Below are positions 8,941-10,447 of a stretch of DNA of 16,118 nucleotides, piece after piece. The notes below the pieces were generated by a model, which was given only the letters and a program-made list of their open reading frames with translations, was not told the origin of the DNA and searched no databases. Both the position numbers and the translations under genes were made by a program. This DNA is from Thermoplasmata archaeon (GTDB taxonomy: Archaea; Thermoplasmatota; Thermoplasmata; Thermoplasmatales; Thermoplasmataceae). The DNA lies in the NCBI GenBank assembly GCA_021847855.1, contig JAJZOT010000007.1, positions 1 through 16,118 on the forward strand, read 5' to 3'. Positions within the stretch are counted from its first letter, which is position 1; the number at the start of each line of letters is the position of its first letter.

Positions 8941-9198
8941 ACTTTGACTGTGCCTGAAGTCTCTTTCGGATACAGTTCATTTAACCGGTCTCTACAGAGG
9001 GCCCAGAACCTGTTCGAATCCCAATTATAAATATATTATAATTGCAATTAAAATGTACATAAATTTCTTCATGTATGGCATATAATAAAATCTGATTCAA
9101 TATATTGCTTAATAATCAATGAAATACTATTTTATGTGAATATCTTAATTTTAAGTAAAAATATTTCATGTACATGAACTGTCCATACATGACAAAAA
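8941..9198. other. AT-rich intergenic region with repeated TCATGTA elements
   Basis: No gene is visible here. From about 9027 the region is very A/T-rich. It holds four related elements: the palindrome ATGTACAT (9053-9060), TCATGTATGG (9069-9078), the perfect 14-nt palindrome TTCATGTACATGAA (9165-9178) and CCATACATGA (9183-9192). The second and fourth are exact 10-nt inverted copies. The last two sit directly before the TATA-like box of the RHH operon, where a bound protein would affect initiation. The TTCGAATC at 9013-9020 resembles a tRNA T-loop but no tRNA folds around it. Confidence 0.5.
9165..9178. promoter_or_regulatory. Perfect 14-nt palindrome, candidate operator
   Basis: TTCATGTACATGAA is fully self-complementary and lies 20 nt before the TATA-like box at 9199. 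A two-fold symmetric site is what a ribbon-helix-helix dimer or tetramer would bind, and such a protein is encoded just downstream. Binding is inferred. Confidence 0.45.
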
Positions 9199-9206
9199 TT
9201 TAAATA
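9199..9206 (+). promoter_or_regulatory. TATA-like box of the RHH/FtsZ-like operon
   Basis: TTTAAATA predicts transcription to begin near 9225-9230. The leader to the TTG at 9241 would be only 10-20 nt and would have the SD site near its 5' end. An ATG pair at 9222-9227 opens a 19-codon frame that overlaps the RHH start in another frame. Confidence 0.45.
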
Positions 9207-9226
9207 CTTCGGTACGAATAGATGAT

Positions 9227-9232
9227 GGAGGT
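9227..9232 (+). promoter_or_regulatory. Shine-Dalgarno site deciding the TTG start of the RHH gene
   Basis: GGAGGT ends 8 nt before the TTG at 9241. An in-frame TGA at 9238-9240 lies immediately before that TTG and there is no nearby in-frame ATG, so TTG is the best start. Confidence 0.6.
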
Positions 9233-9240
9233 TAAACTGA

Positions 9241-9669
9241 TTGGAAGGAAAGGATACCAAGCTTACTATTCGTATATCTGAAAACGATCTGGAGGAGATA
9301 GATGAATTTCTCCAGAAAAATACGCGCTTTGGTAGCAGATCAGAATTTATAAGACATGCCTCAATTGATTTCATCTCAAAGAGCAGAGCGCAGTTCATAG
9401 AACCTTCTGAGACAAATGTAAATGTAAACCGGAAACTTCTGGAAATCCTCAACCTTGCAGTTGAGAAAGGGTACTTCAGTTCAATAAGTGCAGCCCTTGG
9501 TGAAATTATAAATTACTCCACAGAGAATGGAATTATTTCAGAACTCATAGCAAAAAGGCGCCAGGAATACAGAAAACTGGCAGCGAGTGCTACCGATATT
9601 TTTGCTGATGAGCCAGATCTGGAAAGTGGAAATAAAGGTTCAGACGTGATAAAGAAGGAGAAAGATTGA
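9241..9669 (+). CDS. Ribbon-helix-helix protein, CdrS/CopG-like, possibly with two RHH units
   Basis: The 142 residues begin with a clear RHH DNA-binding unit: the strand TKLTIRISE (6-14), helix DLEEIDEFLQKN and, after GSRSEF, helix IRHASIDFISK. A second, similar stretch at about 59-100 (NVNRKLLEILNLAVEKGYFS, then SISAALGEIINY) may be a degenerate second RHH. The tail is charged and probably disordered. RHH proteins bind symmetric sites as dimers. The related archaeal CdrS is encoded beside ftsZ2 in haloarchaea and controls cell division genes. Here the next gene, 1 nt after the TGA, encodes an FtsZ-like protein, so a similar regulatory or partner role is likely but inferred. The start is a TTG with a strong SD site. 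Confidence 0.8.
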   Translation: MEGKDTKLTIRISENDLEEIDEFLQKNTRFGSRSEFIRHASIDFISKSRAQFIEPSETNVNVNRKLLEILNLAVEKGYFSSISAALGEIINYSTENGIISELIAKRRQEYRKLAASATDIFADEPDLESGNKGSDVIKKEKD

Positions 9670-9670
9670 T

Positions 9671-10447
9671 ATGGAAAATGAATTTGATAGCAACATAGGA
9701 AGGCATGCTCGCGAGATAATAAGGAATTACTACGAGGACCGGGCTGATAATACCATCATATCATTTGGAGATGCGGGAAGAAGAATACTTGAGAATATAA
9801 TGCCGCTGGAATACAGGAGAGCAGTGTATCATTCAGTGGTGAGGAGCAGGACAGGTTACCACTTCAATGATCCTCAGGACAGATATACAGATATACTTGA
9901 GATAGTTGGCCCCGAGCCGATGGAGGTGGAACTTATCACAAAAACCCAGTATGAACTGGAGAGATCAAAGAAGGTAAAACTAGTGGAGAGAGATCCCATT
10001 AAGATAAGCGAGACAATCGTAGACTATAACCCACGTGATTACTCTCCCGCAGTCACTGCTAAGGAAATATTCTCAGGCATAGACAAGTCAAATTCATTCA
10101 TACTTGTCAGCGGTTTTGGAGGGCAGTTTGCTCAACCAACGCATATAGCTTTTTCAAAACTGCTTGCCAGTCGTAATATAACACACTACAGTTTTGTGGT
10201 GAAACCGTCAGTTAATGAATATTCCAAGAGACATATGGCAGAGGTTGGATTGAGAGAACTCTCATGCATTAACAACTACATAAGGGAATACGACCATGAC
10301 ATCCATCTGGGTCCACTCAACGGAACAGTGTCCCAGATATCAGAAAAAGTTAAGAATTTAAATATAAGGATCGCAAGAGACCTTGAGGTTGTCTCAACCA
10401 GGATGTCAGGTGCACTGGAAATGCTCAGGCTTCAGCTCATATTATGA
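9671..10447 (+). CDS. Divergent FtsZ/tubulin-superfamily GTPase-domain protein
   Basis: The 258 residues resemble only the N-terminal nucleotide-binding half of FtsZ. IISFGDAGRRILENI (29-43) fits the first glycine-rich loop (GxGxxGxxI). FILVSGFGGQFAQPTHIAF (143-161) stands where FtsZ has GGGTGTG, but the tubulin signature is changed. FVVKPSVNEYSKRHMAEVGLREL, seen in two parts (FVVKPSVNEY at 175-184, KRHMAEVGLREL at 186-197), matches the FtsZ segment following that loop. No NxDxxD T7 loop, needed for GTP hydrolysis between subunits, is visible, and the usual second domain is missing (FtsZ is about 350 residues). It could bind nucleotide without forming normal filaments. Noncanonical FtsZ-like families are known in archaea, but I cannot place this one. 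It is cotranscribed with the RHH gene. Confidence 0.6.
   Translation: MENEFDSNIGRHAREIIRNYYEDRADNTIISFGDAGRRILENIMPLEYRRAVYHSVVRSRTGYHFNDPQDRYTDILEIVGPEPMEVELITKTQYELERSKKVKLVERDPIKISETIVDYNPRDYSPAVTAKEIFSGIDKSNSFILVSGFGGQFAQPTHIAFSKLLASRNITHYSFVVKPSVNEYSKRHMAEVGLRELSCINNYIREYDHDIHLGPLNGTVSQISEKVKNLNIRIARDLEVVSTRMSGALEMLRLQLIL

Follow-up and report, generated by a model that had tools for sequence, protein, structure and literature searches.

What an FtsZ reduced to its GTPase domain does beside a ribbon-helix-helix (RHH) regulator is the question raised by a two-gene locus in a Thermoplasmata archaeon of the Thermoplasmataceae. In the window, that is, the whole stretch of DNA analyzed (16,118 nucleotides of contig JAJZOT010000007.1), the neighbors of this locus are a diverging gene that encodes eIF-5/eIF-2B and TRAM domains, and a converging pyrI, then pyrB. 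A preliminary description had placed the two reading frames 1 nt apart, and their coordinates were confirmed. The features of positions 9180 to 10447 are given below; the promoter elements and ribosome-binding sites among them are candidates read from the letters themselves, in the first case by general archaeal promoter rules.

9180..9191, + strand: operator-like site TGTCCATACATG, immediately 5′ of the promoter
9199..9206, + strand: TATA-box-like element TTTAAATA
9227..9231, + strand: Shine-Dalgarno-like GGAGG of the RHH gene
9241..9669, + strand: RHH regulator gene (142 aa, TTG start), N-terminal RHH, C-terminal half apparently RHH-derived in some relatives
9430..9540, + strand: putative degenerate second RHH-like segment (LLEILNLAVEKGYFSSISAALGEIIN...), predicted from alignments A4 and A6 and from relatives
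9655..9660, + strand: Shine-Dalgarno-like AAGGAG of the FtsZ-like gene, within the RHH gene
9671..10447, + strand: single-domain FtsZ-like gene (258 aa), 1 nt 3′ of the RHH gene
9764..9778, + strand: T1-loop equivalent FGDAG, by the profile alignment of A3
10109..10144, + strand: T4-loop equivalent SGFGGQFAQPTH, in place of GGGTGTG, the best-conserved stretch of alignment A2
10328..10441, + strand: terminal helix, H7 equivalent, the protein stopping where T7 would start

As a single query, the FtsZ-like protein of the window gave no tubulin match in Pfam, NCBIfam, or PDB searches, and its kinship with FtsZ was therefore shown through alignments. The tubulin model PF00091 was matched by five of the eight members of alignment A1 (E ≤ 1; best 2.9e-7), and the alignment A3 profile reached the PDB with a best E of 3.3e-6, all 48 sequences listed being FtsZ. 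The AlphaFold2 model of the window protein (mean pLDDT 78.6) led to the same proteins, with FtsZ and CetZ alone among the 50 Foldseek matches listed. A match to DUF1350 (E 0.071) was rejected as noise, present in two of the eight A1 members versus Tubulin in five. The N-terminal, GTPase-domain fold of Tubulin/FtsZ is present in the window protein, and the FtsZ/tubulin-like identity proposed in the preliminary description is thus borne out by structure and by profile.

The nucleotide-binding parts of this domain have fared unequally. The T1 loop was kept, as had been proposed, with FGDAG as its equivalent by profile alignment; the A3 profile matched short FtsZs with intact motifs at E 6.1e-13, and next to nothing came from a simple BLAST comparison of the window protein with a motif-intact short FtsZ (E 0.038). 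At the T4 position, SGFGGQFAQP stands where GGGTGTG is expected and the signature GGGTG[TS]G does not occur. This region is under the strongest conservation in alignment A2, in which the six best-conserved 13-residue windows all fell inside residues 139–158, and G150 and H158 were invariant in 23 of 23 members. The catalytic T7 loop (NxDxxD) and the C-terminal domain are absent: the structural alignment of the model stops at residue 213 of 1w5f, and the protein ends with an H7-like helix (residues 220–257 by DSSP on the AlphaFold2 model), in contrast to canonical FtsZ loci, of which 57 of 59 had T7 by pattern. Sequence and model thus agree with the replaced T4 and the missing T7 and second domain described earlier. 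In the accepted view of FtsZ activity, each GTPase site becomes complete through the T7 loop of the neighboring subunit. The same genome does encode a canonical FtsZ (L001; 359 aa, with GGGTGTG and NLDFND); compared with it and with the canonical FtsZ of M. jannaschii (1FSZ, 1W5x), the window protein is without GGGTGTG, T7, and the C-terminal domain.

The RHH protein of the window matched Pfam RHH_8 (E 0.001) and RHH_1 (E 0.0015), both under the gathering cut-offs, and the NCBIfam CdrS model NF058555 at 18.7 bits against a model cut-off of 100 bits; the CdrS model was matched by 17 of the 18 members of alignment A4 (E ≤ 0.1; best 1.1e-7). A model built from N-terminal halves matched 8 of 55 C-terminal halves (E ≤ 0.01) versus 0 of 1,100 shuffled ones, from which we infer that the C-terminal half may derive from a second RHH; the C-terminal half of the window protein itself was absent among the best matches listed in this search.

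Within the family to which the window belongs, 62 of 77 genomes contained a PF00091 match and 44 contained the short form (E < 1e-20), which in G247 was the sole such match. Tallied over the family profile searches, an RHH match directly adjoined the short form in 43 of the 44, counting one (G239) whose RHH match is partial, weak (E 9.4e-4), and at a contig start; in the 44th, the FtsZ match itself begins at a contig end. The pair is accordingly a feature of many genomes and not of this one alone. The other 18 PF00091-positive genomes belong to g5 (12) and g11 (4) or are G223 and G240. In g5 and g11 the RHH gene is followed by a further-changed partner of 235–255 aa, linked to the short form by profile (E 9.8e-7), with an open reading frame that was intact in nine of the ten loci examined (8/8 in g5, 1/2 in g11) and split in G162. 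The 15 genomes of g2, g3, and g12 had neither a PF00091 match nor a short form (A2 profile); the RHH gene was retained in 14 of them (E < 1e-30), and the weak RHH match of the 15th (G186) is apparently the paralogue.

Some further observations were made in this family. In all 10 loci examined of the 14 that retain RHH without FtsZ, an open reading frame of 157–179 aa follows the RHH gene, and this ∼160-aa protein overlaps the RHH gene in the FtsZ-less genera, Picrophilus and two others (L141-L142, L147-L150, L152-L154, L159). It was considered as an FtsZ remnant, but the profile comparison did not link it to FtsZ (E 0.011, prob 3.7), and homology is not claimed; with its model (pLDDT 83.9), the PDB search yielded nothing at E ≤ 0.001, and FtsZ was absent from the 50 matches listed. 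An RHH paralogue of ∼100 aa is present in many family genomes and, by eye, lies just 5′ of a pheT-like gene in two loci (L215, L216). In the draft genome G211 (contig C1, 2753–3246), the canonical FtsZ match is in two pieces with a TAG inside.

Across the class Thermoplasmata, the RHH profile matched 194 of 200 genomes at E ≤ 1e-3, paralogues counted in. A non-random sample of 38 RHH loci, taken among the better matches listed and covering 24 families, was searched with an HMM built from 42 canonical FtsZ; of the class's 29 families seen besides the window's own, f7, f13, and f28 were left out and f12 entered through one locus (L268). All 38 loci had an FtsZ-homologous open reading frame just 3′ of the RHH gene (worst E 6.4e-5). 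The HMM match stopped before T7 in 34 of these and extended past it (to 238–252) in four, none of which had the T7 pattern; L207 alone of the 38 has that pattern, yet its HMM match ends before T7. The single f12 locus, from a family with weak or no RHH matches, encodes an FtsZ-like protein of 316 aa that keeps GGGTG and has no T7 pattern. When six further class matches were added to the 38 loci, the GGGTG core was kept in 29 of the 44 members (24 by a stricter T4 pattern) and altered in 15, from 12 families. Among seven class-level matches, one (L020, 302 aa) falls outside the RHH-linked type. Another altered variant was seen in f26 (L204, L212), where the RHH-linked FtsZ-like protein, ∼325 aa in length, reads GGHTSS at T4 and carries a long tail, and PF00091 was matched 5 to 9 times per genome in many Thermoplasmata. 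The setting first suggested for the pair, a wall-less archaeon, was too narrow, the pair being present in most class families sampled.

Genomes with taxon titles gave 76 parsed loci out of 80: the 19 nearest were short and without T7 (discounting a chance hit of the pattern, TDDIAE, in L300), with RHH upstream in 15, and the other 57 all had T7, with RHH upstream in two; because the query was itself a short form, short forms rank first by design and it is the contrast that counts. Twelve of the 19 were from Methanomassiliicoccaceae, Methanomethylophilaceae, or Methanoplasma, five from Thermoplasmata, and two from Euryarchaeota. Outside the class but within the phylum, 12 of 19 RHH loci, chosen among the matches listed, precede an FtsZ with T4 and T7; the remaining seven, one of them at a contig end, had no FtsZ with both.

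In each of three trees, the short forms and canonical FtsZ lay on two sides of a branch (SH-aLRT 100; 92/93; 100/99). In the unrooted tree, the RHH-linked full-length FtsZ were placed between the short forms (100/99) and the canonical FtsZ of the class (100/100), which leaves the origin of the short forms undecided; the rooted tree places them. This tree had 89 rows, with 12 bacterial FtsZ as outgroup and the canonical FtsZ of the class thinned to 24; eight short forms (three partial, five on long branches) were left out, as was the window's own family, and long branches were flagged by the tree tool. The short forms made one clade (100/98), as did the 24 canonical FtsZ (100/98). The short forms, the RHH-linked full-length FtsZ, and L334 came together (92/92), and the clade that encloses them also takes in four other archaeal FtsZ (100/93). 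A topology joining the short forms to the canonical FtsZ of the class was rejected (p-AU 0.036), and an exclusive clade of short forms and RHH-linked full-length FtsZ was not (p-AU 0.273).

The best reading of these results, from a tree that lacks the window's family, is that the pair is probably a remodeled version of the archaeal cdrS-ftsZ2 operon. According to the text available for each source, the cdrS-ftsZ2 locus is widely conserved in archaea (PMC7439475), ftsZ2 is often found with parD (PMC8178401), and haloarchaeal FtsZ2, in which both tubulin domains are present, is required for division (PMC7439475). The window pair resembles haloarchaeal cdrS-ftsZ2, as far as it is described there, in having an FtsZ-family gene immediately preceded by one for an RHH protein (PMC7439475, PMC8406309), and differs from it in the missing T7 and C-terminal domain, the rewritten T4, and an RHH protein with a second half. 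The relation to CdrS and FtsZ2 raised in the preliminary description is supported by the upstream RHH gene, the CdrS matches of its relatives (that of the window RHH itself being weak), and the rooted tree, and the term remodeled module proved apt, with T7 and the C-terminal domain lost, T4 rewritten, and the RHH pairing kept. Other divergent members of the FtsZ superfamily are known: FtsZl1 and FtsZl2 are likewise divergent (PMC2875224, in the part available), and FtsZl1 is described in the same part as without recognizable T6-H7 elements or FtsZ-like C-terminal parts. In FtsZl1 the C-terminal regions are coiled-coil and helical and the context is VWA/GTPase/OmpA (PMC2875224, same part), whereas the window protein lacks an extension and lies next to an RHH gene. 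Three of six class members were weakly matched by Tubulin_2 (PF13809) (best E 1.7e-5, 24.7 bits versus a cut-off of 27), and the Pfam search gave no such match for the window protein.

Upstream of the RHH gene, a partly conserved operator-like motif is suggested by comparison with relatives. Against the 29 other family upstream regions, TGTCCATACATG had a mean best match of 8.97/12 versus 7.25 in shuffles; a match at p < 0.05 was found in 13 of the 29 and not in the other 16, and any combined p is not independent because the upstream regions are related. In six genomes, the strict motif TGTMNNTACATG was rarer than its backward control (15 matches versus 44) and stood at the RHH promoter in two (G000, G082); no other gene with TGTMNNTACATG recurred across the six as a shared regulon would.

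The relation of the pair to the division ring was examined through SepF, searched in 29 of the 77 family genomes and in 22 genomes of f8, a family of Methanomassiliicoccales type with Methanomassiliicoccaceae and Methanomethylophilaceae as nearest titled relatives. SepF was found in 18 of 19 FtsZ-bearing family genomes, the sole miss being the window's own 80% complete draft, and in 0 of 10 FtsZ-less ones. Nine of the 22 f8 genomes had the RHH-linked short form as their single PF00091 match, and SepF was matched in 0 of these 9. The other 13 had a second FtsZ match, and since 9 of the 13 also had a SepF match (two below the cut-off), short form and ring occur together in that part of f8. ESCRT-III was matched in 0 of 22 f8 genomes by an insensitive Snf7 model under whose cut-off the sole positive control also fell, and by this weak model in 7 of 15 family genomes, including that of the window. 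In the eight loci read by eye (L217, L240-L246), the second f8 FtsZ was divergent, exceeded the short form in length, and followed an RHH-like gene of its own (∼100 aa); the locus adjoins a P1/L12-like ribosomal gene in L240-L246. The pair thus persists in genomes where the known ring was not detected, and appears uncoupled from it there. The division, shape, or membrane role proposed in the preliminary description has found no support so far, both because the parts of a polymer-forming GTPase are missing and because of these nine f8 genomes with a short form and no other PF00091 or SepF match.

With a short FtsZ beside an RHH protein, a division gene may have been remade for a different task. 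The computations above directly give the fold, the parts that are missing, the recurrence of the pairing and its spread, and where the short forms of the class fall in the tree; the contact between the two proteins, the signal, and the direction of regulation are what we infer beyond them. A transcription-factor partner is favored because the pair persists without a detected ring and the promoter motif is partly conserved, and on balance the pair is probably the Thermoplasmata version of cdrS-ftsZ2, in which the short FtsZ would now serve as a co-regulator of the RHH protein and tie expression to a signal. An FtsZ2-type protein would have lost its T7 loop and C-terminal domain in the class, the GTPase domain alone surviving, and in several lineages, the window's included, the GTP-binding T4 loop would have changed too. 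The RHH protein would regulate the operon from a TGTNNNTACA-type site that it binds in its own promoter, and the FtsZ-like protein would contact it through the conserved former nucleotide pocket. The signal may be a guanine nucleotide where the motif is intact and something else in the lineage of the window.

The idea considered first was that a subunit with only the GTPase domain caps or inhibits canonical FtsZ filaments at one end, the RHH protein setting its dose. Of the two halves of the FtsZ interface, the short form retains the domain for one and lacks the other, and it is absent from all 15 family genomes that lack PF00091. The idea lost weight because the RHH gene stays in the FtsZ-less genera and because the nine f8 genomes with the short form as sole PF00091 match contain nothing known to cap; the nucleotide face is, moreover, rewritten in the window's family, and capping now seems unlikely. 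Somewhat less likely still is a division or membrane-remodeling GTPase that works without T7 and may be the sole division tubulin in some Methanomassiliicoccales, to which the T4 core intact in most class members and the nine f8 genomes without another PF00091, SepF, or ESCRT-III match would lend themselves; T7 and the C-terminal domain, required for polymer-linked hydrolysis in known FtsZ, are missing, however, the core motif is altered in 15 of the 44 members and in the window's family, there is no tie to SepF, and the ESCRT-III absence comes from the insensitive model. A toxin-antitoxin-like pair, with the RHH protein neutralizing an FtsZ-derived toxin, is very improbable: two genes with RHH first are typical of ParD-type systems and a ParD-family antitoxin model was matched by 3 of the 18 RHH members, but the pair is widespread, mostly single copy per genome in the family, and not patchy, and the PADLOC anti-phage models gave 0 families for either protein.

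In the part of PMC10936438 available, several Thermoplasmata are given as having FtsZ but neither SepF nor a PRC barrel, whereas FtsZ is stated to be absent in Picrophilus, Acidiplasma, and Ferroplasma; that part is silent on such an FtsZ being single-domain and RHH-linked, as in the nine f8 genomes, which need not be the same species. An RHH-linked FtsZ without T7 was not found in the open-access PMC literature, supplements excluded and as far as its text was accessible, and Thermoplasmata may be included where PMC7439475 tabulates CdrS loci. FtsZ is unmentioned in the main text of PMC4153887, on Methanomassiliicoccales genomes.

Scoring of FtsZ presence is affected by these findings, given that nine PF00091-positive genomes of at least 95% completeness hold the short form alone. 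It is conceivable, though we hold it with some doubt, that throughout the class a GTPase domain of the tubulin superfamily has passed from filament subunit to signal-sensing partner of a transcription factor, and that in part of the Methanomassiliicoccales it is the sole tubulin-family protein left. The methanogens with those nine genomes, in which neither SepF nor ESCRT-III was detected, would then rely for division either on this one-domain FtsZ or on some unknown machinery. A widespread half-FtsZ next to a protein that binds DNA would be a clear example of gene regulation having recruited part of the cytoskeleton.
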